A stretch of DNA of 30,450 nucleotides, taken from positions 1 to 30,450 of the IMG/VR virus record IMGVR_UViG_3300042691_031196. One strand, given 5' to 3'. Each line of letters starts with the position of its first letter. Within the stretch, counting starts at the first letter, position 1. The notes beneath the pieces were generated by a model, which worked only from the letters and a program-made list of their open reading frames with translations, made no database searches and was not told the origin of the DNA. This DNA comes from a virus. Shown here piece by piece: positions 1,813-26,337 of the stretch. The position numbers and the translations under genes are program-made.

Positions 1813-2465
1813 AAAAATTTATTTATAATACTAATGATTATGACTTTAATGTTATAATATCTAAAATATTAAATTGTAATAATTTATCTAAGATACATGG
1901 AGAAAAAGACTTTAATAGTTTAATAAAAGAATCTATTAATAATACACATAAATTTCAACAATCAGAATATCATCAAAAATATTATAATAACTTTGATTTA
2001 ATAAAACCATTATATGAAAAGTTTTTAAAAGAAATTATTAAACCATTATATTTGGGTGAAAATATTGTTTATCAAAAAATACCAACATTTAGAATACATT
2101 TTCCCAATGGAATGTCCGTTGGTATGTTTCATAAAGATAAAGATTTACGTGATTATAGATGGCATGAACTAATAAAAGAAGACAATTATTATTTACCATT
2201 TACGGATAGTTATGGATCTAATACCATATGGTATGAGACTGAAGAAGATAAAAAAGATTACACTCCAATGGAATGTAAGTATGGTGAAATTGTTAAATGG
2301 GATGGTACTAATTTAAGTCACGGTAATAAAATAAATGAGACTGAACATACTAGAGTTAGTATTGATTTTAGAGTAACTAGTGAATCTTTATTTAAGAATA
2401 ATAATAATAAAAGTAAAAATGAAAAAACGTCATTTGTTATTGGCGGTTATTATCAAATTATATGA
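1809..2465 (+). CDS. 2OG-Fe(II) dioxygenase family protein, StrG-like
   Basis: Likely a mononuclear iron, 2-oxoglutarate-dependent oxygenase acting on a sugar or small molecule. The facial triad can be read: H108-x-D110 (FHKDKD) and distal H171 in LSHGNKIN, followed by R182 and S184 in TRVSIDFRV, the usual position of the 2-oxoglutarate-binding Arg/Ser. The segments SYGSNTIWYE and YGEIVKWDGTNLSHGN are the pattern I associate with StrG of streptomycin clusters; that link rests on memory of the family. The start at 1809 (ATGA overlap) is preferred over an upstream ATG at 1779 inside the preceding gene. The protein is 218 aa with a low-complexity Asn/Lys stretch near 197-206. Its stop overlaps the next gene, whose N-terminus is StrF-like. 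Confidence 0.65.
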   Translation: MKKFIYNTNDYDFNVIISKILNCNNLSKIHGEKDFNSLIKESINNTHKFQQSEYHQKYYNNFDLIKPLYEKFLKEIIKPLYLGENIVYQKIPTFRIHFPNGMSVGMFHKDKDLRDYRWHELIKEDNYYLPFTDSYGSNTIWYETEEDKKDYTPMECKYGEIVKWDGTNLSHGNKINETEHTRVSIDFRVTSESLFKNNNNKSKNEKTSFVIGGYYQII

Positions 2466-3985
2466 GAAATAATTTAAGTGTAATTGTTAGTACTAAAAAA
2501 ATAGATGAAAAATATAAACAACATCTATATGAAACATGTGGTTTAAAAGATGTTGAAATTTTATTCTATGAAAATCCTAATGGAATATCTTTAACTGAAA
2601 TTTACAATAAGGGTCTTTCAGATTCAAAAAATGAAATTGTAGTCTTTTGTCATGACGATTTAATTTTTAATTCCCAAAAATGGGGGAAAAAATTATTAAA
2701 TATTTTTAATAATTCGGAATATGGTATTATTGGAGTTGCGGGTAGTACATACATGCCAACTAGTGGTAAATGGTGGGAAGATCAATCTAAAATGGTTGGC
2801 ATAGTAAAGCATTCAAAAGATGGTAAAACTTGGGTTAGTAAATACTCATCAAAGTTTGATACCATTATTGATACTTGTAATTTAGATGGTTTATTTTTTT
2901 CTTGTGATAAACATAGAATAAAAAATAAATTTGATGAAAATATTAAAGGATTTCATTTTTATGATGTAGATTTTACATTTGGGAATTATATTTCAGGTGT
3001 AAAAATTGGTGTTACTTTTGACATAGAATTAACACATAAATCAATCGGTATGACTAATGATGAGTGGGAACAAAATAGAAGACAATTTATACAAAAATAT
3101 ACATTTAAACCTAATACAAAGGAAATTTGTTTACCCACTAAAATTAAAAGTAAAATTTTTTATGAAGATAGAAAATTAAATTTTAAAACGGCACCTAAAG
3201 TTGAAATCATAATACCCAATATAAACAAATTTGAATTATTGCGCAACTGTATAGAATCTTATTTAAAAAAATCTACCTATCCAAATATGAAAATAACAGT
3301 TGCCGATACAGGTAGTGATGATGAAAATTTGCCAAAAATTAAAGATTATTGTGAAAAAAATAATGTAAAATTAATTGAGTACGATTATTATCATTTTGAA
3401 AAAATAAACAATGATGTAGTAAAAAATCATTTAGATCCCGATACAGAATTATTATTATTTTCGAATAATGATATAGTCTTAATAAACGATTGTGTTTCTG
3501 AAATGATTAATTTGTATTTAAAAAATAAAAATATTTGTGGTACTGTGGGTGCTAGATTGTATTTTGAAGACGATACAATTCAACATGCAGGAATAGATGT
3601 TTTAGGTACGGTAAATTCTCAAAATCAATTTGCACTTAGAATTGGTCATGTTGGATTTAAAAGTGAATATCTTTACCCTAATACTGATTTAGTGGGTACT
3701 ATTGGGAACACTGCAGCGTTACAATTAATATCTAAAGAATTATTTATTGATATGGGATATTTCCCTGAAGATTATTTATTTTCATTATCGGATGTGGAAT
3801 TTAACCTTAAAACTACTCTATGGGGTAAAAAAAATTGTTTTGCACATAATGCAGTTGCCTATCATTTTGAAAGTTTAAGTAAAGCTGAAAAAGGTATTAA
3901 TAAACCTGAAGATTGGAAAAGAGTTACTGATTACGTGTTTAATAATAAAAGAATTTTAAATAGTATAAAGACAATTAAAATATGA
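2462..3985 (+). CDS. Two-domain glycosyltransferase: StrF-like N-terminus plus GT2 C-terminus
   Basis: A 507-residue fusion of two GT-A-like domains. The N-terminal half (about 1-215) has VIVSTK at the start, NGISLTEIYNKGL, the acidic CHDDLIF (63-69) and GVAGSTYMP, typical of the StrF / Glyco_tranf_2_5 family. The C-terminal half (from about 243) begins VEIIIPNINKFELLRNCIES, has an acidic metal-binding-like FSNNDIVL near 334, and continues with GTVGARLYF and IQHAGIDVLG as in GT2 rhamnosyltransferase-type enzymes. It probably transfers one or two sugars from nucleotide donors onto a growing glycan in the cytoplasm. No membrane segment was seen. It overlaps its neighbours by ATGA on both sides. 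Donor and acceptor cannot be assigned. Confidence 0.75.
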   Translation: MRNNLSVIVSTKKIDEKYKQHLYETCGLKDVEILFYENPNGISLTEIYNKGLSDSKNEIVVFCHDDLIFNSQKWGKKLLNIFNNSEYGIIGVAGSTYMPTSGKWWEDQSKMVGIVKHSKDGKTWVSKYSSKFDTIIDTCNLDGLFFSCDKHRIKNKFDENIKGFHFYDVDFTFGNYISGVKIGVTFDIELTHKSIGMTNDEWEQNRRQFIQKYTFKPNTKEICLPTKIKSKIFYEDRKLNFKTAPKVEIIIPNINKFELLRNCIESYLKKSTYPNMKITVADTGSDDENLPKIKDYCEKNNVKLIEYDYYHFEKINNDVVKNHLDPDTELLLFSNNDIVLINDCVSEMINLYLKNKNICGTVGARLYFEDDTIQHAGIDVLGTVNSQNQFALRIGHVGFKSEYLYPNTDLVGTIGNTAALQLISKELFIDMGYFPEDYLFSLSDVEFNLKTTLWGKKNCFAHNAVAYHFESLSKAEKGINKPEDWKRVTDYVFNNKRILNSIKTIKI

Positions 3986-4768: not shown

Positions 4769-5485
4769 ATGATAACAGTAATTTTAAATGGTTATAAAAG
4801 ACCACAATTTTTTAAAGAACAATTATTAGCGATTGAAAATCAAACTATTAAACCTGAAAGAATTATGTTTTGGCAAAATAGTGATTTAGATTTTGATGTT
4901 CCTAGTCACATCGAACATTGTAAATCCAATACAAATTACGGAGTTTGGTCTAGATTTATTTATGCACTAAATAGTGATAGTGAATATATTTGTGTTTTTG
5001 ATGATGATACTATTCCCGGTAAAAAATGGTTAGAAAATTGTTTAAATACTATGAAAACGCATGAAGGTTTATTGGGGACAGTAGGATTAATTTTTAATAC
5101 TAAACAAAGTTATGGACATCATTTTAGGGTAGGTTGGCCAAATGCAAATATGCATACAACTAAGGTTGATATTGTTGGTCATTCTTGGTTTTTTAAAAGA
5201 GAATGGTTAGAAGTTTTATTTAGAGAAAAACCATTCATTAGTGGTAAAACAAAATTAGTGGGTGAAGATTTACACTTTTCATATATGTTACAAAAGTATT
5301 TAAATATTGATACATATGTACCTCCACACCCCATTAATGATAGAGAACTTTGGGGTAGTTTAAAAGCTATACAATATGGTACAGAACAACATGCAATATC
5401 AAATGATGGTGGAAATATGAAAGAAATGTATGATTATTATTTGGAAATATTAAAACAAGGATTTAAAATAACAAGAGAAAGATAA
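4769..5485 (+). CDS. GT2 family glycosyltransferase
   Basis: 238 aa GT-A glycosyltransferase. MITVILNGYKRPQFFKEQLLAI is a standard GT2 opening, ENQTIKPERIMFWQNS follows, and CVFDDDTIPGKKWLENCL near residue 78 is the metal-binding acidic cluster. VGEDLHFSYMLQ near 170 resembles the ED motif that carries the GT2 catalytic base. Its start lies 19 bases after the previous gene, in an A-rich leader without a Shine-Dalgarno sequence. It is likely to add one sugar in the pathway built by this cassette; the donor is unknown. Confidence 0.75.
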   Translation: MITVILNGYKRPQFFKEQLLAIENQTIKPERIMFWQNSDLDFDVPSHIEHCKSNTNYGVWSRFIYALNSDSEYICVFDDDTIPGKKWLENCLNTMKTHEGLLGTVGLIFNTKQSYGHHFRVGWPNANMHTTKVDIVGHSWFFKREWLEVLFREKPFISGKTKLVGEDLHFSYMLQKYLNIDTYVPPHPINDRELWGSLKAIQYGTEQHAISNDGGNMKEMYDYYLEILKQGFKITRER

Positions 5486-6908: not shown

Positions 6909-7901
6909 ATGATATTAATTTGTTATGGAACAAGACCTGAATGGTTAAAAGTTAAACCAATAATTGAAGAAATTAAAAAAAGAAAAATGCCCTTTAAAAC
7001 ACTATTTACGGGGCAACATAAGAATTTAATTGATGTTATCGGTGACTATCAATTAAAAATTGAAGATTTGACTGAAAATAGATTGGATAATATAATATCT
7101 TCAATATTAGTGGATAGTCAAAATATATTTGAAAATATTACACATATATTAATACAGGGAGATACAACATCAGTATTGGCTTTAGGAATAAAGGCATTTC
7201 ACCATAATGTTAAAATTATACATTTAGAGGCAGGTTTAAGGACGTATGATTTAAATAATCCATGGCCAGAAGAAATGAATAGACAACTCATTTCTAGAAT
7301 TTCAGATATAAATTTTTGTCCTACAAAATTAAATCAGAAAAATTTAATTAAAGAAAAAATTTTTGGTAAAATATATGTAGTAGGTAACACTATTTTAGAC
7401 AATATTAAAGACATTCCTACTTCGTATGAAAATAAAATTTTGATTACGTTACATAGAAGAGAAAATCATAATATTATTGATAAATGGTTTATTGAAATAG
7501 ATAAAATTGCAAAATTTAATAAAGACATAGAATTTGTATTACCAATACACCCAAATCCAAATGTTAAGAAAAATCAACATTTTTTAAAACACGTAAAAGT
7601 AGTTGATCCTATGAATCATAATGAATTAATTGAATTTTTATCAAAATCATTAATGGTAATTACAGATAGTGGTGGGATTCAAGAAGAGGCTTCATTTTTA
7701 AATAAAAAAATAATTATTTGTAGAAAAACTACAGAAAGACCTGAATCTTTAGGTATACATAGTTTTTTATGTAAAACACCAAAAAATATATATAAAATTT
7801 TTAATAAAATTAAAAATAATTTTATAGTAAATGAACCATGCCCGTTTGGTGATGGTTATTCTTCTATAAAAATAGTAGATATCTTAGAAAACTTATGTTA
7901 A
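6909..7901 (+). CDS. wecB: UDP-N-acetylglucosamine 2-epimerase (non-hydrolysing, WecB type)
   Basis: Interconverts UDP-GlcNAc and UDP-ManNAc by elimination and re-addition of UDP, supplying ManNAc or ManNAcA precursors. The GT-B-like fold is evident. CYGTRPEWLKVKP opens the protein; QGDTTS gives D85, HLEAGLRT gives E108, and PWPEEMNRQ gives E121/E122, matching the catalytic acids of the family. LHRRENHN (181-188), PIHPNPN with H214 and ITDSGGIQEEA (251-261) follow. The length of 330 aa is slightly below the usual ~370, mainly from short loops. It overlaps the next gene by 7 bases. This is the most securely assigned precursor enzyme of the cassette and implies an N-acetylhexosamine in the product. 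The gene symbol is by family only. Confidence 0.88.
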   Translation: MILICYGTRPEWLKVKPIIEEIKKRKMPFKTLFTGQHKNLIDVIGDYQLKIEDLTENRLDNIISSILVDSQNIFENITHILIQGDTTSVLALGIKAFHHNVKIIHLEAGLRTYDLNNPWPEEMNRQLISRISDINFCPTKLNQKNLIKEKIFGKIYVVGNTILDNIKDIPTSYENKILITLHRRENHNIIDKWFIEIDKIAKFNKDIEFVLPIHPNPNVKKNQHFLKHVKVVDPMNHNELIEFLSKSLMVITDSGGIQEEASFLNKKIIICRKTTERPESLGIHSFLCKTPKNIYKIFNKIKNNFIVNEPCPFGDGYSSIKIVDILENLC

Positions 7902-8509
7902 TAGATTTAAATGAATTAAAAAATAAATATGATTTAAAAATAAAAGGTGTAATACATATTGGTGCCCATTATGGTGAAGAATTTAACGTATACGATAAAT
8001 TAAAAATAAAAAACATAATTTTTTTTGAACCTTTATTAGAAAATTTTAAAATTCTAAAAGAACGTATCGGAGATAAGGCTATATTAGTAAATAAAGCATT
8101 AGGTAATGAAAATAAAAAAATTACTATGAATGTTGAAACCAATAATCAAGGACAATCATCATCCATATTGGAACCACATATTCATTTAACACAATATCCT
8201 TGGATTATTTTTAATAAAAAAGAGATAGTTGAAATGGTAAGATTAGATGATGAATTAAAAGATAATGATAAGTATAATTTTATTAATATTGATGTACAAG
8301 GATATGAATTAGAAGTTTTTAAAGGATCTTCTCAGATCTTAAAAAATGTTGATTATATTATGACTGAAGTTAACAAATCTGAAGTTTATAAAAATTGTGC
8401 TATGGTAGAAGATTTAGATAATTTTTTATCTAAATTCAATTTTAAACGTGTAGAAACCACTTGGGATGGCATAACATGGGGTGATGCGTTTTATATTAAA
8501 AATCAGTAA
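7895..8509 (+). CDS. FkbM family methyltransferase
   Basis: 204 aa SAM-dependent O-methyltransferase of the FkbM family. VIHIGAHYGEEF near residue 19 is the SAM-binding loop, IIFFEPLLENFKIL is the acidic strand that follows it, and NKALGNENKKITM with SSSILEP is the FkbM middle block. FINIDVQGYELEVFKGS near 130-146 is the family's most recognisable motif. Members commonly methylate sugars in glycans or natural products. It overlaps the epimerase by 7 bases. A second, divergent FkbM protein lies at 12191-12835, so the glycan may be methylated at two positions; this is inference. Confidence 0.85.
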   Translation: MLIDLNELKNKYDLKIKGVIHIGAHYGEEFNVYDKLKIKNIIFFEPLLENFKILKERIGDKAILVNKALGNENKKITMNVETNNQGQSSSILEPHIHLTQYPWIIFNKKEIVEMVRLDDELKDNDKYNFINIDVQGYELEVFKGSSQILKNVDYIMTEVNKSEVYKNCAMVEDLDNFLSKFNFKRVETTWDGITWGDAFYIKNQ

Positions 8510-8510
8510 C

Positions 8511-9161
8511 ATGGAAGATTTTTGTGTAGTAGTAACTGGTGAAAGTAAGTTTGTTGATGAAATTAAAAAATCATTTAAGGATTCAAACATTAAAATATTA
8601 TTTTCAACATGGGTTGGATCTGAAGATAAATATTCAGATAAAGATATCGTAGTTTTTGACAATTTACCTAGTTACTGTGGTAATGGTAATATTAATTTAC
8701 AAAAGATATCAACACTTAACGGACTTTTAAAGGCTAAGGAATTAGGATATCGCAGGGCATTAAAAATAAGAAGTGATATTATACCAACTAATAGTAAATC
8801 ATTTTTAAATTTATTAAATAATGAAAAAATAAATTTATTATGTTGGCATCAACATTTTGTTGGATTAAATGGTTATTTTGTTGACTATTTAATGTCAGGT
8901 ATTATTATTGATTTAATAGATATTTGGAAAAATGTCAACATAAATTTACATAATGTTACCGAAGTTATGTTAACTAATAGTTTAATAAATCATTTAGATA
9001 ATATAAATTATTTATTAAATGATTTAAATAATGACAATGACTTATTTTGGTTAAAATATGGAAAAAAACTAAGTGACTACAAACCAAATAAAAATTATGA
9101 TAAATATTATCATAAGTATGATTTTGATAATATTAAAAAAGAATATTTAAAACTGTCATGA
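8511..9161 (+). CDS. WavE-like lipopolysaccharide-synthesis family protein
   Basis: 216 aa. The pattern ILFSTWVGSEDKYSDKDIVVFDNLP, then INLQKISTLNGLLKAKELGYRRALKIRSDI (about 30-100), is that of WavE-type proteins of LPS-core and capsule loci, which are putative glycosyltransferases. The KIRSDI segment is the most conserved part and may bind donor or metal. I chose the ATG at 8511, one base after the previous stop; an ATG at 8481 lies inside that gene. Residues 140-190 are low-complexity Asn/Leu/Asp. A second WavE-like protein, of divergent sequence, is at 10192. The activity of the family is poorly established, so a transferase role is inference. Confidence 0.65.
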   Translation: MEDFCVVVTGESKFVDEIKKSFKDSNIKILFSTWVGSEDKYSDKDIVVFDNLPSYCGNGNINLQKISTLNGLLKAKELGYRRALKIRSDIIPTNSKSFLNLLNNEKINLLCWHQHFVGLNGYFVDYLMSGIIIDLIDIWKNVNINLHNVTEVMLTNSLINHLDNINYLLNDLNNDNDLFWLKYGKKLSDYKPNKNYDKYYHKYDFDNIKKEYLKLS

Positions 9162-9886
9162 ACATATTAATACCAATGGCTGGATTAGGGGATAGGTTTA
9201 AACGGGCAGGTTTTTTAAGGACAAAACCTATGATACCTATATTAGATAAACCTATGATAGAATGGGCGATAAATAGTTTAGGTGTTAACGGTAATTTTAT
9301 TTTTATATTAAATAACAAGAATGAAGAATTTAATGAATTAAAAAATTTATTAAATAAAATATGTAAAAATCCTAAAATAATTGATATTGATTATCTTACC
9401 GAAGGTCCGGCAAGTACTTCTTTGTTGGCTAAAGAATATATAAACAATGACGATCCTTTACTAATAATAAATTGTGATCAAATAATGACTTGGGATTCTA
9501 ATAATTTTTTAGAATTTATTAAAAAATTTAAAGACGATGGTTTTGTTGTAACATATGAGATAAAAACAATAAAAAATAGTTACGTAAAGATAGATGAATT
9601 TGGTTACGCAATAAAATTTGCGGAAAAAGAAATTATTAGTGATTATTCATTAAATGGTATACATTATTGGACAAAAGGAAAAGATTTTGTTATGTCTGCA
9701 GAAAAAATGATCAAAAAAAATATTAGAGTTAATGGAGAATTCTATATTGCACCCACCTATAACGAATTATTATTGGAAAATAAAAAAATAAAAATTTACC
9801 ATATAGATAAAAATAAACATTGGTCTGTTGGTACACCTGAAGATTTAAACATTTTTTTAGAAAAAATTAAAAATGAAAATATTTAA
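9158..9886 (+). CDS. Sugar-1-phosphate nucleotidyltransferase
   Basis: 242 aa NTP_transferase protein, expected to activate a sugar-1-phosphate to an NDP-sugar. ILIPMAGLGDRFKRAGFLRT with KPMIPILDKPMIEW (3-36) is the nucleotide-binding signature (GxGxR then the KPM lysine). YLTEGPASTSLLAKEYI (80-95) is the substrate loop, and INCDQIMTWD (104-113) carries the metal-binding Asp. GEFYIAPTYNELL near 187 and HWSVGTPEDL near 225 are typical C-terminal blocks. It is short, lacking the left-handed beta-helix of GlmU- or GlgC-type enzymes. It overlaps both neighbours. The following cupin gene suggests a specialised sugar rather than glucose. Nucleotide and sugar cannot be fixed from sequence alone. Confidence 0.85.
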   Translation: MNILIPMAGLGDRFKRAGFLRTKPMIPILDKPMIEWAINSLGVNGNFIFILNNKNEEFNELKNLLNKICKNPKIIDIDYLTEGPASTSLLAKEYINNDDPLLIINCDQIMTWDSNNFLEFIKKFKDDGFVVTYEIKTIKNSYVKIDEFGYAIKFAEKEIISDYSLNGIHYWTKGKDFVMSAEKMIKKNIRVNGEFYIAPTYNELLLENKKIKIYHIDKNKHWSVGTPEDLNIFLEKIKNENI

Positions 9887-10199
9887 AATGTCAGAAATGA
9901 AAGATGGTTGGTTTGTTGGTGATTTTATTCCATCAGCATATAAGACTTCTTATTTTGAAGTTTGTTATAAAAAACACAAAAAAAATGAAAAGTGGGACAC
10001 ACATTATCATAAAAAAAGTATAGAAATTAATTATTTAATAAGTGGTGAAATGATAATTAATGAGACTAAATTAACTGCGGGAGATATATTTTTAATTGAA
10101 CCATATTTTATATCAACACCAACATTTTTAGAAGACTGTACATTAATTATAATTAAAACCCCTTCTATAATTGGGGATAAATTTGTTATAAATGAATAG
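9873..10199 (+). CDS. Single-domain cupin protein
   Basis: 108 aa beta-barrel protein. Cupin motif 1 is readable: WDTHYHKKSIEINYLISGEM, with H44, H46 and E51 as metal ligands. Motif 2, GDIFLIEPYFIST (70-82), lacks the usual His. The size suits a sugar-nucleotide or sugar-phosphate isomerase, epimerase or sensor. In polysaccharide loci, small cupins are often next to nucleotidyltransferase genes, as here (14-base overlap upstream, 8-base overlap downstream). The substrate is unknown. It might act on the same sugar as the nucleotidyltransferase or as the RuBisCO-like protein two genes on; that is inference from gene order. Confidence 0.7.
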   Translation: MKIFKMSEMKDGWFVGDFIPSAYKTSYFEVCYKKHKKNEKWDTHYHKKSIEINYLISGEMIINETKLTAGDIFLIEPYFISTPTFLEDCTLIIIKTPSIIGDKFVINE

Positions 10200-10983
10200 T
10201 GATGTGACTATATTAATCCAAGGTCCAATTAGAAATAACCTTTTGATTGAATCAATACCATTTTATCAAAAATATGGAGAGGTTTTGTTTGTTCATTATG
10301 ATTATGAAAATATTTACCACATTGAAAATACGGGAATTAAATTTTTAAAAATTAATTTACCGACAATAAATAGTGAAATATTCAATTTTAATAATACATT
10401 TTTACAGACTAATGGAATTTTAATGGGTTTAAAAAATATTAAAACAAAGTACACTATAAGAGTCAGAAGTGATGAATCATTCCCTAATTTAGATAATTTT
10501 TTAACTAATATTATGACACATGAAAATAAAATACACGTAACTAATCTATATAGTTTTAAAGATAATGAACATAAATTTTGTTTAGGTAATCATATTTTTG
10601 CAAGTAAAACAGAAATTATGTTAAAAGCTTTTGAATGGGCATATGATGTATGTATAAATAAAAATGATAATATAAGAAAAACTAATAATATTTTATATTA
10701 TAAAGATATTAACAATATTGAAATTCCTATGTGGTCAGAAATTCTACAAACTATTTCTTTTTTAATTGCTAAGAAAGTTAATATCGACTCAAAAAATTCT
10801 AAAAATCAAATTATTGAAAATTTTTATATGACACCATTACGAGATTTACCCAATTTTAAATGGACACATAAGTATAATAATTATCAACCTATTACCTCTA
10901 GTACTATTATGGAGTATGACCCTAATTGGGAAGATAGTAAATCAAAAATAAACAGATTTATGATTAAGATTGAAGATATATAA
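10192..10983 (+). CDS. WavE-like / LPS-synthesis family protein
   Basis: 263 aa. It opens with VTILIQGPIRNNLLIESIPFYQKYGEVLFVHYD and has TYTIRVRSDESFPNLDNFL-like sequence near 95-110 (ILMGLKNIKTKYTIRVRSDE). The ILIQGP opening and the RxRSDE block are shared with WavE-type putative glycosyltransferases, including the paralogue at 8511. Cys and Trp are few and no membrane helix is seen. It overlaps the cupin gene by 8 bases and is followed by a 24-base leader of AATAAAT repeats before the RuBisCO-like gene. It is probably a transferase of the same glycan pathway. Confidence 0.55.
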   Translation: MNSDVTILIQGPIRNNLLIESIPFYQKYGEVLFVHYDYENIYHIENTGIKFLKINLPTINSEIFNFNNTFLQTNGILMGLKNIKTKYTIRVRSDESFPNLDNFLTNIMTHENKIHVTNLYSFKDNEHKFCLGNHIFASKTEIMLKAFEWAYDVCINKNDNIRKTNNILYYKDINNIEIPMWSEILQTISFLIAKKVNIDSKNSKNQIIENFYMTPLRDLPNFKWTHKYNNYQPITSSTIMEYDPNWEDSKSKINRFMIKIEDI

Positions 10984-11007: not shown

Positions 11008-12189
11008 ATGAAAATTTTTAGAAAAAAAATAGACAATGAAAAATATTTTACAATAAAATATTTTTTAAAATCAAAAACTAATTTGAAAGATGCGGCATGG
11101 AATTTGGCCATAGGTCAAAGTGTTGGTAATCCTAACGTTAGAAACAATTGGGAGACTGATGAATTATTTGAAAATCATTCTTGTTTTGTTTTAGAAGATG
11201 AAAACATTTTAATGAGTAAAGAAGAAGGTATAGTAGAAATTGCTTTCCCTATTGAAAATATTGATTTTAAAACTGATGGTGTTGCTCATTTATTGGTTAA
11301 CATAATGGGTGGACAATTAGATATCGAAAATATTTTAAAATGTCACATAATTGATATTAATTTTCCTGAATGGGTAGAAAAAAAATATTTTATGAAGCCT
11401 AAATTTGGAATTACAGGAATCAGAGAATTTACTAAAACATTTGATAAACCTTTATTTGGTGCAATAATAAAACCAAAAATTGGTATTACACCACAAATAT
11501 TATTGGAAATGGTCAAAGAATTAGTTGAAGGTGGTGTTAACTTTATCAAAGAAGATGAAATTATGAGTAACCCAAAGACATGTCCAATTGAAGAAAGAGT
11601 CCCATTAATTATGGATTATCTAAAAGATAAAAATGTAATATATTCGGTATCTATACATTCTGATCCTGCCTATATTTTAAATAGAGTTAAAAAAGTTTAT
11701 GAATTGGGTGGTAACTCAGTACATGTAAATTTTTGGTGCGGATTAGGGGTTTATAAATCGATTAGAGAATTAGATCTACCAATTTTTGTACATTTTCAAA
11801 AATCTGGAGATAAAATTTTTACTAATAAATCCCATGATTTTCACATTGATTGGAGGGTAATTTGCAAATTAGCAGGTTTAATGGGTGTCGATTTTATACA
11901 TGCAGGTATGATAGGTGGATATTATAAATGGGACGAAGAAGAAACATTAGATGCGGTTAAAATTTTAAATAAATATAACGTTATGCCCGCATTAAGTTGT
12001 GGATTTCATCCTGGTTTAACTGAATGGGTTACCGAAAAAGTAGGTTTTAACTATATGGCTAATGTAGGTGGCGCATTACACGGACACCCTAATGGAACTT
12101 TAGCAGGAGCTAAAGCTATGAGACAAAGTATTGATAAAAATTATGATATTGAATATAATGATGCAATAAAAAAATGGGGAGTTAAGTAA
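11008..12189 (+). CDS. RuBisCO-like protein (form IV), phage-encoded
   Basis: 393 aa with the RuBisCO large-subunit fold. GAIIKPKIG (151-159) holds K155 and K157, equivalent to spinach K175 and K177. GGVNFIKEDE (175-184) keeps K181, D183 and E184, the carbamylated lysine and metal ligands (K201, D203, E204). H262 and H298 match H294 and H327; S330 in LSCGFHPG matches S379; VGGALHGHPNG (353-363) is the phosphate-binding GG loop. Against carboxylase activity, loop 6 reads GMIGGYYKW, so the K334 position is Tyr305. R295 is Phe263, N123 is Gly102, and the E60 region reads AIGQSVGN. These losses place it among form IV proteins, which enolise, isomerise or decarboxylate phosphorylated sugar-like substrates (MtnW, OiaC/OiaX types). 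No methionine-salvage or apiose-pathway gene is nearby. Base composition matches its neighbours and the frame is intact. The substrate is unknown. Confidence 0.9.
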   Translation: MKIFRKKIDNEKYFTIKYFLKSKTNLKDAAWNLAIGQSVGNPNVRNNWETDELFENHSCFVLEDENILMSKEEGIVEIAFPIENIDFKTDGVAHLLVNIMGGQLDIENILKCHIIDINFPEWVEKKYFMKPKFGITGIREFTKTFDKPLFGAIIKPKIGITPQILLEMVKELVEGGVNFIKEDEIMSNPKTCPIEERVPLIMDYLKDKNVIYSVSIHSDPAYILNRVKKVYELGGNSVHVNFWCGLGVYKSIRELDLPIFVHFQKSGDKIFTNKSHDFHIDWRVICKLAGLMGVDFIHAGMIGGYYKWDEEETLDAVKILNKYNVMPALSCGFHPGLTEWVTEKVGFNYMANVGGALHGHPNGTLAGAKAMRQSIDKNYDIEYNDAIKKWGVK

Positions 12190-12190
12190 A

Positions 12191-12835
12191 ATGTTAATAG
12201 ATAAATTTATTTTTCATATTAGAAATATTGACCCAAACTTTGAGCCTAATATAATTTTAGATATAGGTTCTAGGGATTTAGAACAAAGTATAGAATTTAA
12301 TAGTGTCTATAAAAATTCAATTATTTATGCTTTTGAACCAAATCCTGAACAATTTAGTATATGTTTAGAAAAAAGTAAAAACTATAAAAATATAAAAGTT
12401 GAACAGTTGGCAATAAGTGAAGAAAATGGTAAACTAAATTTTTTTATAACACATGGGAACGTAGGGGCTTCATCACTTTTAGAGCCAATAAACGTTCCAT
12501 TTGCGAGTACTCAAGACTTTACAAAAATAACTGTTGACTCAGTAAGATTAGACAAATGGTTGGAAAATAATCAAATAAATAATGTTGATATTATGTGGTT
12601 AGACACACAAGGTGTAGAGTTATCTGCATTAAAAAGTATGGGTAATAAAATAAAAAATGTTAAATTTATTCATTGTGAAGCTTCAGAATTACCTTATTAT
12701 AAAGGGCATTTATTGAAAAAAGAATTATCTAATTTTTTATTAGATTTGGATTTTGATTTAAAATTTATTAATGATAATTATCACCCTTTTAAAGAGGGTG
12801 ATATAATTGCAACTAATAAAAAATATGTTAAATGA
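12191..12835 (+). CDS. FkbM family methyltransferase (second copy)
   Basis: 214 aa. IILDIGSRDLEQSIEF near residue 22 is the SAM-binding loop, IIYAFEPNPEQFSICLEKS the next strand, and VEQLAISEENGKLNFFI with VGASSLLEP the FkbM middle. VDIMWLDTQGVELSALKSMG near 132-151 corresponds to the DVQGxE motif, with D137 and E142 kept. It starts one base after the RuBisCO-like gene, so the two are almost certainly translated from one mRNA. It differs much from the other FkbM protein at 7895, so it is not a recent duplication. Sugar O-methylation is the most likely role. Confidence 0.82.
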   Translation: MLIDKFIFHIRNIDPNFEPNIILDIGSRDLEQSIEFNSVYKNSIIYAFEPNPEQFSICLEKSKNYKNIKVEQLAISEENGKLNFFITHGNVGASSLLEPINVPFASTQDFTKITVDSVRLDKWLENNQINNVDIMWLDTQGVELSALKSMGNKIKNVKFIHCEASELPYYKGHLLKKELSNFLLDLDFDLKFINDNYHPFKEGDIIATNKKYVK

Positions 12836-23072: not shown

Positions 23073-23498
23073 ATGAAAAAAATACAAAATGGGGACACTG
23101 TTAGTGTCAATTATATCGGTAGATTAGAGGACGGTACTGTTTTTGATAGTTCGTTAACCGAAGGTAGAGAACCTCTTAAAGTAACACTTGGTCAAGGACA
23201 ATTGATTAAAGGTTTTGAAAATGGACTATTAGAAATGTCAGTAGGTGATAAGAAAACTATTACTCTTAATCCGTCTGAGGCTTATGGTGAACCAAACCCT
23301 GAAGCTATTATTGATGTCCCACTTTCAAATTTACCTGAAGGAGTTCAAATCGGACAAACACTTCAAGGACAAGGACCACAAGGACCTTTTATTGTTACTG
23401 TAGTTGATGTAAATGAAACAAGTGCAAGACTTGATCATAACCATCCAATGGCAGGTAAAACACTAACATTTGATTTAGAAATTGTAGAAGTACAATAA
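23073..23498 (+). CDS. SlyD-type FKBP peptidyl-prolyl isomerase
   Basis: 141 aa. Catalyses cis-trans isomerisation of prolyl bonds and may act as a folding chaperone. IQNGDTVSVNYIGRLEDGTVFDSSLTEG opens the FKBP fold; PLKVTLGQGQLIKGFENGLLEMSVGDKKTITLNPSEAYGEPNPEAI (about 35-80) is the SlyD/FKBP2 signature. The IF-domain insert (LSNLPEGVQIGQTLQGQG) and the closing RLDHNHPMAGKTLTFDLEIVEV complete it. It lacks the His-rich metal-binding tail of E. coli SlyD. It is a single-gene unit between its own promoter and a strong terminator. It may help fold tail or glycoprotein products; that is inference. Confidence 0.93.
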   Translation: MKKIQNGDTVSVNYIGRLEDGTVFDSSLTEGREPLKVTLGQGQLIKGFENGLLEMSVGDKKTITLNPSEAYGEPNPEAIIDVPLSNLPEGVQIGQTLQGQGPQGPFIVTVVDVNETSARLDHNHPMAGKTLTFDLEIVEVQ

Positions 23499-25079: not shown

Positions 25080-25475
25080 ATGAGAAATATAAAAATTTAC
25101 GTAGAAGAGGGGGCAGAAAACATGACTCCAAGATTTGTGGAATTATTAAAAAAATTCATACCTTTTGCGATTAAATTTTTAAATATTGAAACCCCATTTA
25201 CCCTTCATTTAGTTCACTCAAAAGTTCCACAATTAAGAACTACAGGTGTATACATAAATAATGATAATGAAATTTGGATAAGGGTTAAAAATAGACACCA
25301 AGTAGATCTATTCAGAAGTATTTGTCATGAAATGGTTCATCACAAACAAAATGAATTGGGTATGTTAAATTCTCGTTCAGGGGAGGATTCTTCAGTAGAA
25401 GAAGGGCAAGCAAATAGATACGCAGGAATTGTTATGAGAAAATTTGGTAGAAAATATCCTGAAATATACGAATAA
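25080..25475 (+). CDS. Putative zinc metallopeptidase (HExxH)
   Basis: 131 aa. The core is FRSICHEMVHHKQNELG (79-94) with the zincin motif H83-E84-x-x-H87. SVEEGQANRYAGIVMRKFG (105-123), 20 residues later, supplies E107 or E108 as a likely third zinc ligand (gluzincin-type layout). The N-terminal half has beta strands (FTLHLVHSK, GVYINNDNEIWIRV) as in small phage or SprT-like peptidase domains. The start could also be the ATG at 25122 (residue 15): AGAGGGGG lies about 9 bases before it, whereas the ATG at 25080 nearly touches the promoter palindrome. Its partner downstream is a second protease gene. Confidence 0.65.
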   Translation: MRNIKIYVEEGAENMTPRFVELLKKFIPFAIKFLNIETPFTLHLVHSKVPQLRTTGVYINNDNEIWIRVKNRHQVDLFRSICHEMVHHKQNELGMLNSRSGEDSSVEEGQANRYAGIVMRKFGRKYPEIYE

Positions 25476-25497
25476 TAAAAAAGATAAAATTTTAAAA

Positions 25498-26337
25498 ATG
25501 GGTAAATCAAGAAAACCTTCTAAAAAAGTAACTAAAAAAACGACAAAATCAAAATCGAATCCAACGGACAAATTAAAACCTAAAAGTAAGGCGTATTATG
25601 GTTGGACTCCTGATACTCCTGACCATCGTGACTTAATGTTTTCTCTTCCTAAGAAGATGAAAAAACTACCATCAAAGGTAGATTTAAGAACCGAAGAATT
25701 ACCACTATTCGATCAAGGATCTTTGGGTAGTTGTACCGCAAATGCAGTATCTACAGCATTTGCCTTTAGTGTACTTAAACAAAAAGAAGAAGAACTTTAT
25801 ACACCTTCACGTTTATTTATTTATTATAATACTCGTTTATTAGAAGGTAATGTAGGTATAGATAGTGGGGCAACACTTAGGAACACTGTTAAATCTATGA
25901 ATAAAGTTGGTACATGTGGTGAAGATAATTGGCCATATGTAATAACAAAATTTACCAATAAACCTGGTGATACTTGTTATAAAATTGCAAAAGACAATAA
26001 AGCAATAAAATATGAAAGATTAAATCGTTCTTTATATGATTTCAAATCATGTTTAGCCTCAGGATTTCCTTTTGTGGGTGGATTTGCAGTTTATGAAAGT
26101 TTCCAATCTCGTGAAGTGGCTAAAACAGGTATGATGCCAATGCCCGGTAAAGATGAAAAATTTTATGGTGGACACGCAATAATAGTAATGGGTTATGATG
26201 ATGAAATGGAATGTTTTATCGTAAGAAATTCATGGGGTAAAAAATGGGGCGATAAAGGTTATTTTTATATGCCTTACGAATATCTTTTAAATAGACAACT
26301 ATCTGATGACTTTTGGGTGATACAGAAAGTATCTTAA
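25498..26337 (+). CDS. Papain-like cysteine peptidase (C1A)
   Basis: 279 aa from the ATG at 25498; the frame upstream to 25444 overlaps the previous gene and is not family-like. The catalytic set is complete: Q73 of the oxyanion hole and nucleophile C79 in FDQGSLGSCTANAV, H226 in YGGHAIIVMGYDD, and N244 in VRNSWGKKWGDKGYFYMP. SVDLR-type sequence (KVDLRTEELP) precedes the domain as in other C1A enzymes. The first 32 residues are strongly basic (KSRKPSKKVTKKTTKSKSN), with no signal peptide, suggesting a nucleic-acid- or virion-bound enzyme. It follows the HExxH gene by 22 bases and ends just before a terminator. The target is unknown. Confidence 0.9.
   Translation: MGKSRKPSKKVTKKTTKSKSNPTDKLKPKSKAYYGWTPDTPDHRDLMFSLPKKMKKLPSKVDLRTEELPLFDQGSLGSCTANAVSTAFAFSVLKQKEEELYTPSRLFIYYNTRLLEGNVGIDSGATLRNTVKSMNKVGTCGEDNWPYVITKFTNKPGDTCYKIAKDNKAIKYERLNRSLYDFKSCLASGFPFVGGFAVYESFQSREVAKTGMMPMPGKDEKFYGGHAIIVMGYDDEMECFIVRNSWGKKWGDKGYFYMPYEYLLNRQLSDDFWVIQKVS

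Follow-up and report, generated by a model that had tools for sequence, protein, structure and literature searches.

RuBisCO-like proteins (RLPs) are known to act in methionine salvage and in the catabolism of apionate and related sugar acids. Within the parts of the literature accessible to our search, no earlier assignment of the RuBisCO family to surface-sugar biosynthesis was found. Among the closest described analogs of the locus reported here is the DeepYkr RLP of the MTA-isoprenoid shunt, a 5-methylthioribulose-1-phosphate 1,3-isomerase that works with a cupin methylsulfurylase in Rhodospirillum and Rhodopseudomonas, and which sets a precedent both for the pairing of an RLP with a cupin and for ketose-phosphate 1,3-isomerization (PMC5893883). 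Here we compare with these systems an RLP encoded by a virus, the partner genes that accompany it in viruses and cells, and related viral cassettes that do without it.

The RLP gene and its surroundings

The window (the whole stretch of DNA analyzed, 30,450 nucleotides) corresponds to positions 1–30,450 of IMG/VR virus record IMGVR_UViG_3300042691_031196. The initial annotation described an intact RLP in the glycan island of a T4-like phage, and this is confirmed by an open frame of 393 codons with an ATG start and no internal stops, by the Pfam match (Table 1), and by a gp23-type major head protein (phrog_138, E = 1.9e-66), PhoH and dUTPase in the same window. The neighbors of the RLP that it listed (sugar-nucleotide, cupin, methyltransferase and glycosyltransferase genes) are likewise all present.

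Table 1. Features of the window, with the matches on which their assignments are based
Feature	Position	Strand	Matches and remarks
Two-domain glycosyltransferase, wider glycan island	2462–3985	+	Glyco_tranf_2_5 2.6e-28; Glycos_transf_2 2.9e-14
Family-2 glycosyltransferase, wider glycan island	4769–5485	+	Glycos_transf_2 2e-5
WecB-like UDP-GlcNAc 2-epimerase, wider glycan island	6909–7901	+	TIGR00236 3.8e-74, above cut-off
FkbM-family methyltransferase, wider glycan island	7895–8509	+	Methyltransf_21 8.2e-19
RmlA/GlmU-type nucleotidyltransferase (NTPT), 242 aa, conserved RLP partner	9158–9886	+	Pfam NTP_transferase 1.2e-9; best PDB match of profile 4evw, 1.3e-33
Small single-domain cupin (CUP), 108 aa, conserved RLP partner	9873–10199	+	Cupin_2 0.00086 (below Pfam cut-off); profile against solved cupins 4.5e-5; phrog_24762 9e-32
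263-aa ORF between cupin and RLP, not a conserved partner	10192–10983	+	No Pfam, PHROG or NCBIfam match
RLP, 393 aa	11008–12189	+	Pfam RuBisCO_large (PF00016) 4.6e-33; model pLDDT 95.1, pTM 0.92
FkbM-family methyltransferase, frequent but inconstant RLP neighbor	12191–12835	+	Methyltransf_21 1.4e-18
Compact glycerophosphodiester-phosphodiesterase-like protein (GDPD), 157 aa	12825–13298	+	ATG at 12825; ORF opens at TTG 12807
FKBP-type prolyl isomerase	23073–23498		Encoded between phage structural genes
Peptidase, papain-type cysteine protease-like	25444–26337		phrog_16701; unusual beside T4-like head genes
Metallophosphoesterase-like protein, 491 aa	26366–27841	–	phrog_1649 (weak); resembles the purple-acid-phosphatase type; adjoins the major head gene

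Fold, phylogeny and distribution of the RLP family

A structure predicted from 52 relatives has the RuBisCO large-subunit fold (N-terminal alpha/beta domain and TIM barrel) over the full chain. It matches archaeal RuBisCO and MtnW over its whole length, with a Z score of 45.2 against Pyrococcus horikoshii RuBisCO (2cwx; 378 residues, 2.3 Å) and 44.5 against Geobacillus kaustophilus MtnW. Archaeal form III RuBisCO is also among the best sequence matches. Of the NCBIfam models, rubisco III, MtnW and OiaX come closest, all of them far under their curated cut-offs (126 bits versus 513.6 for MtnW, TIGR03332; 133 bits versus 700 for OiaX, NF042437, E = 1.2e-38). Relatives at 54–80% identity have open frames in the approximately 80 loci examined first, and dN/dS against nearer relatives is about 0.08–0.17; the protein is under strong purifying selection.

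Our first tree joined long branches (MtnW with L105, and L097 with L100), and it was rebuilt without L097 and L100 and with extra references, leaving the support of the family clade unchanged at 100/100. The family forms an RLP clade of its own, apart from MtnW, the OiaX and four-carbon-acid-kinase RLPs, IV-Photo, and forms I and III, which group in a separate clade. A DeepYkr-like reference (L174), named by sequence resemblance only, branches apart from the family as well, on a very long branch. The clade may be the same as IV-GOS, an RLP group described from ocean-sampling sequences. As judged by the tests made, the window protein is a member of the RuBisCO superfamily, of form IV insofar as this means a non-carboxylating protein, and is not an MtnW, an OiaX or a carboxylase.

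It had been considered unusual for a phage to carry such a gene. This holds for sequenced isolates, where a search of INPHARED gave no match in 50,697 phage records, but not for metagenomic viruses, as IMG/VR yields at least 172 stretches with a relative when the window protein is the query and 338 with the family alignment. Among the matches listed from the predicted viral structures of BFVD there was no RuBisCO-like model, the best being partial barrels with a query TM of about 0.4. A cellular search of GTDB, with one genome per species, returned 24 loci, one of which (L105) falls in a different RLP group; among the taxa represented are SAR11, Legionella, Azospirillum, Elusimicrobia, Verrucomicrobia, Bacteroidota and DPANN archaea. 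In the portions of the literature open to a search on phage, viral, glycan, LPS, Legionella or SAR11 RLPs, nothing was found that describes this clade.

Active-site residues

We aligned 34 family members with form I, form III, MtnW, OiaX, four-carbon-acid-kinase and IV-Photo references. The equivalents of K175, K177, K201, D203, E204, S379, G381 and G403 (K155, K157, K181, D183, E184, S330, G332 and G354 in the window protein) are kept in 34/34 members, and that of G404 (G355) in 32. From viruses to bacteria and archaea, the family shows little or no variation in its metal/carbamate residues and phosphate-site glycines. With the metal-site residues K181, D183 and E184 present throughout, carbamylation of the lysine is predicted. 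A second set of positions is replaced in all 34 members: E60 and N123 are Gly, T65 is Asn, W66 is Pro, H294 is Gln and K334 is Tyr. The R295 position holds Lys in 28 members, Ser in five and Arg in one. Accordingly, the carboxylase residue set of K334, E60, N123, H294 and R295 is absent from the window protein, which has Tyr305, Gly36, Gly102, Gln264 and Lys265 at these positions. Since carboxylase residues are replaced in all members, carboxylation is very unlikely, but the family could plausibly carry out metal-enolate chemistry on a phosphorylated substrate. The replacements and the position of the family in the tree both bear out the non-carboxylating character proposed in the initial annotation.

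Realignment upheld most of the individual residues in that proposal: K155, K181, D183, E184, H298, S330, G354 and G355 were correctly aligned to carboxylase residues, as were the Tyr at the loop-6 lysine and the Gly at N123. Two assignments, both two positions out of register, have to be revised. H262 aligns with H292, the catalytic H294 being replaced by Gln264, and the residue at R295 is Lys265 and not the Phe placed there. H298, the counterpart of H327, is variable in the family (Gln in 7/34).

Conserved partner genes in viral loci

Partner genes were counted within five genes of the RLP over 98 viral loci. NTPT was found in 94, the GDPD-like gene in 82 and the cupin in 70, with the direct order NTPT-CUP-RLP in 53; after thinning to 21 representatives at 70% RLP identity, NTPT remained in 19 and the cupin and GDPD in 17 each. 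WecB and FkbM, both of which had been put forward as associated genes, were near the RLP in 6 and 38 of the 98 loci, counts that rule them out as conserved partners and leave their presence incidental. Among the neighbors first named, then, only the nucleotidyltransferase and the cupin are conserved, and the GDPD-like gene, which had gone unnamed, joins them. The GDPD-like protein (approximately 150 aa) has invariant H-R-G, E-N, E-x-D, H-D, H and C-x-D motifs across 13 sequences, at positions common to full-length homologs in Verrucomicrobia and Nanoarchaeia, and its profile matches solved GDPDs at 1.8e-9.

The partner genes of known RLP routes were reported missing from the window, and the wider set agrees: no MtnA-family gene (PF01008; MtnA/R15P isomerase) was detected in 25 related viral records of 80–294 kb, themselves incomplete, there was no apionate partner, and next to the RLP no gene for a four-carbon acid kinase was seen.

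RLP-NTPT pairs in cells and possible exchange with viruses

The RLP-NTPT pair recurs in SAR11 (GDPD-NTPT-RLP-NTPT), Verrucomicrobia (GDPD-RLP-NTPT), Sphingobacteriales (RLP-CUP-NTPT), Elusimicrobia and Nanoarchaeia (both RLP-NTPT), Legionella and Azospirillum, with all four genes in Azospirillum oleiclasticum (GDPD-RLP-CUP-NTPT), where the RLP is at L099, 4396–5643, a start that may be internal. A gene order conserved across viruses, bacteria and archaea backs the earlier suggestion that the RLP helps to make a sugar building block.

In Legionella, a LicD phospho-transferase gene (4.7e-44), the sole LicD gene in the three genomes concerned, is divergent from RLP-NTPT, which from its family would fit transfer of a phospho-linked unit. 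LicD was rejected as a general partner, only these three Legionella being positive among 41 genomes or records. In Azospirillum, cysD- and cysN/C-like genes directly follow the RLP operon (L099, 6771–9568; PAPS-reductase domain in the first, 4.1e-58), which may mean that this same glycan is sulfated.

Virus-type RLPs occur in some of the SAR11 single-cell genomes (L083, L085 and L086). The L086 gene occupies the chromosomal position of the native SAR11 version, with downstream gene clusters in common, which suggests that RLPs have been exchanged between viruses and hosts. This site, which holds either the virus-type NTPT-RLP pair (L086, 821–2011) or the native RLP operon (L089–L092), adjoins genes that by eye resemble HflK/HflC/DegP, and suggests a hypervariable glycan spot common to SAR11 and phages. 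In SAR11 operons L088–L092 two nucleotidyltransferase paralogs flank the RLP; the upstream one (e.g. L088, 5883–6620) lacks the G-x-G-x-R-F signature and may be inactive or regulatory.

Sister cassettes without an RLP

Cyanophages without an RLP retain homologs of its partner genes. Using one cupin query, from cyanophage Bellamy, we collected 72 viral loci, related to each other, and counted genes over the 70 that have a called cupin gene (cyanophage references included). None of the 70 has an RLP; GDPD is present in 62, and in 59 the NTPT is fused to RpiB. Upstream of the NTPT-RpiB fusion, a KdsC-like phosphatase and a PfkB-like kinase were found in 68/77 and 72/77 loci respectively, while both are absent from all RLP loci, and an RpiB gene occurs in one RLP contig only (L118). 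The RpiB domain matches solved ribose-5-phosphate isomerases at 8e-29, and for the phosphatase the matches are KdsC-type enzymes (7e-23) and a related structure without a name (1.5e-26); the kinase is a borderline PfkB (Pfam 25.4 versus a cut-off of 25.8, and one PDB match at 2e-6). The two kinds of cassette have homologous NTPT, cupin and GDPD proteins (36, 44 and 41% identity, respectively). With RpiB, kinase and phosphatase present where the RLP is absent and the rest homologous, the RLP and this set are mutually exclusive; on gene content the RLP thus takes the place of isomerase, kinase and phosphatase in a cassette that is otherwise homologous, the absences being provisional as the viral records are incomplete.

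The NTPT-RpiB fusion and its linked KdsC-like and PfkB-like genes (L124, 1769–2926, and relatives in L175–L246) look like an undescribed nucleotide-sugar pathway of cyanophage-like viruses. In another cyanophage locus (L123, 1797–3182), a HAD phosphatase is fused to the same nucleotidyltransferase family, with a GDPD-like gene near.

Proposed role and alternatives

We think it somewhat probable that the RLP is a ketose-phosphate isomerase, or a related enolate enzyme, that delivers, by a single step, a sugar phosphate for nucleotide-sugar synthesis by the neighboring NTPT. A phosphorylated keto-sugar would be bound as a metal enediolate, with the metal on the Lys181 carbamate, Asp183 and Glu184. 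Isomerization, the likeliest reaction, would shift the carbonyl to another position on the chain, the change that the DeepYkr RLP brings about in 5-methylthioribulose-1-phosphate, and would turn an abundant ketose phosphate of the host (e.g. a pentulose 5-phosphate) into a differently placed phosphate ester with neither kinase nor phosphatase. NTPT would convert this product to a nucleotide-activated sugar, and glycosyltransferases of the island would put the activated unit on a virion or cell-surface glycan. For the other two partners we can only guess: the cupin probably isomerizes or epimerizes the RLP product, and the GDPD-like protein may act on, or recycle, a phosphodiester in the same route.

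This isomerase reading draws on the NTPT/GDPD/cupin module of the viral loci, the recurrence of the RLP-NTPT pair in cells up to the four-gene set of A. oleiclasticum, the RpiB fusion with KdsC-like and PfkB-like genes in sister cassettes, the divergent LicD of Legionella, an active site that keeps metal and phosphate residues without H294, R295, K334, E60 and N123, and the DeepYkr precedent. Several points count against it. The chemistry is borrowed by analogy from DeepYkr, whose long-branch relative stands apart from the family, and OiaX-type RLPs decarboxylate. The sugar made by the RpiB cassette may be another one, and the exchange would then be less informative on RLP chemistry; the RLP-less set comes from one cyanophage cupin and its members are kin; the kinase assignment is borderline; and contig L118 has both an RLP and an RpiB gene. 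The model also leaves the two SAR11 NTPT paralogs per operon unexplained, and because the cupin is missing in 28/98 viral and most cellular loci, it is not essential. A wider claim, which we offer tentatively and hold somewhat short of probable, is that the clade, which T4-like viruses have in common with SAR11 and other cells, is a dedicated nucleotide-sugar biosynthesis enzyme. One enolate step, by moving the carbonyl with respect to the phosphate, would replace isomerase, kinase and phosphatase and yield, for the surface glycans of virus or host, an activated (keto)sugar not known before.

Among the alternatives, the one that survives best, though unlikely, is a decarboxylase or C-C bond-cleaving enolate enzyme whose ketose phosphate product would be activated by NTPT. 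OiaX, which makes L-erythrulose 1-phosphate and has phosphorylated keto-sugars both as substrates and as products, ranks with the closest curated families and has K175 and the metal site in common with the RLP. However, the family lies apart from the OiaX/four-carbon-acid-kinase clade (100/100), lacks the equivalents of H294, R295 and K334 that OiaX keeps, has no four-carbon acid kinase gene seen beside it, and is stood in for by an isomerase in the sister cassettes. A non-catalytic RLP (structural, regulatory or a scaffold), or one with a substrate other than a sugar phosphate, is more doubtful still. Several canonical catalytic residues are indeed replaced, and we know of no agreed reaction yet for IV-Photo RLPs, but near-invariant metal/carbamate residues and phosphate-site glycines, a dN/dS of approximately 0.1 and constant linkage to a nucleotidyltransferase argue otherwise.

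The RLP and cupin could also be the MTA-isoprenoid-shunt pair (1,3-isomerase and methylsulfurylase) in phage methionine/MTA salvage, placed in a glycan island by chance. The cupin is often directly upstream of the viral RLP, as this would predict, but the same cupin occurs without an RLP beside RpiB-fused NTPT, the constant partner is NTPT and not the cupin, the RLP falls outside the one, very long DeepYkr-like branch of our tree, and MtnA-family genes were not found in the 25 related, incomplete records. We hold salvage to be quite improbable. Least credible of all, and in our judgment extremely improbable, is an active or relic carboxylating RuBisCO for phage CO2 fixation or nucleoside salvage, which has the form III sequence matches in its favor and, against it, the Tyr at the loop-6 lysine and the replaced E60, N123 and H294 in 34/34 members, the tree, and the lack of a PF01008-type gene among the 25 related viral records.

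If the isomerase reading is true, the RuBisCO superfamily gains a biosynthetic role in surface-sugar making. The clade puts the superfamily in viruses, despite leaving no trace in isolate phage records or, among the matches listed, in predicted viral structures, and links marine viruses and their likely hosts by common glycan genes. Since all four genes form a complete operon in an Azospirillum that is in culture, the reaction can be put to a direct test.

Comparison with known systems

DeepYkr resembles the window family in its superfamily, in the proposed metal-enolate chemistry and in its pairing with a small-cupin gene. The window family differs in lying on another branch (as judged against one reference), in having NTPT and GDPD-like partners and no MtnA-family gene, and in its viral, glycan-island setting. 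MtnW/YkrW, the 2,3-diketo-5-methylthiopentyl-1-phosphate enolase (2oek, 2zvi), is close in fold (Z 43–45), in the change of E60 to Gly and in an H-x-x-x-S-G motif at the H292 strand, but is on a separate branch with Met at K177, Ala/Phe at H294/R295 and Ser at K334, and the window RLP is not in a methionine operon. OiaX and the four-carbon-acid-kinase-linked RLPs of apionate and related catabolism belong to the same superfamily and act in phosphorylated keto-sugar chemistry, whereas they form a separate supported clade, keep H294, R295 and K334, and sit in catabolic operons with a kinase. Form III RuBisCO (2cwx, 3a13, 8dht) gives the top fold scores and sequence profile matches, yet its carboxylation residues are replaced in every family member aligned. 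The IV-GOS RLPs, ocean-sampling sequences (Tabita 2007; cited in PMC10173188), are marine, as are many family members by origin, and could be the same clade. Finally, the ADP/GDP-heptose and Kdo-type pathways follow the same enzyme logic as the RLP-less cassette (RpiB, PfkB-like, KdsC-like, NTPT), while the RLP cassette is without that isomerase, kinase and phosphatase set and has the RLP in their place.
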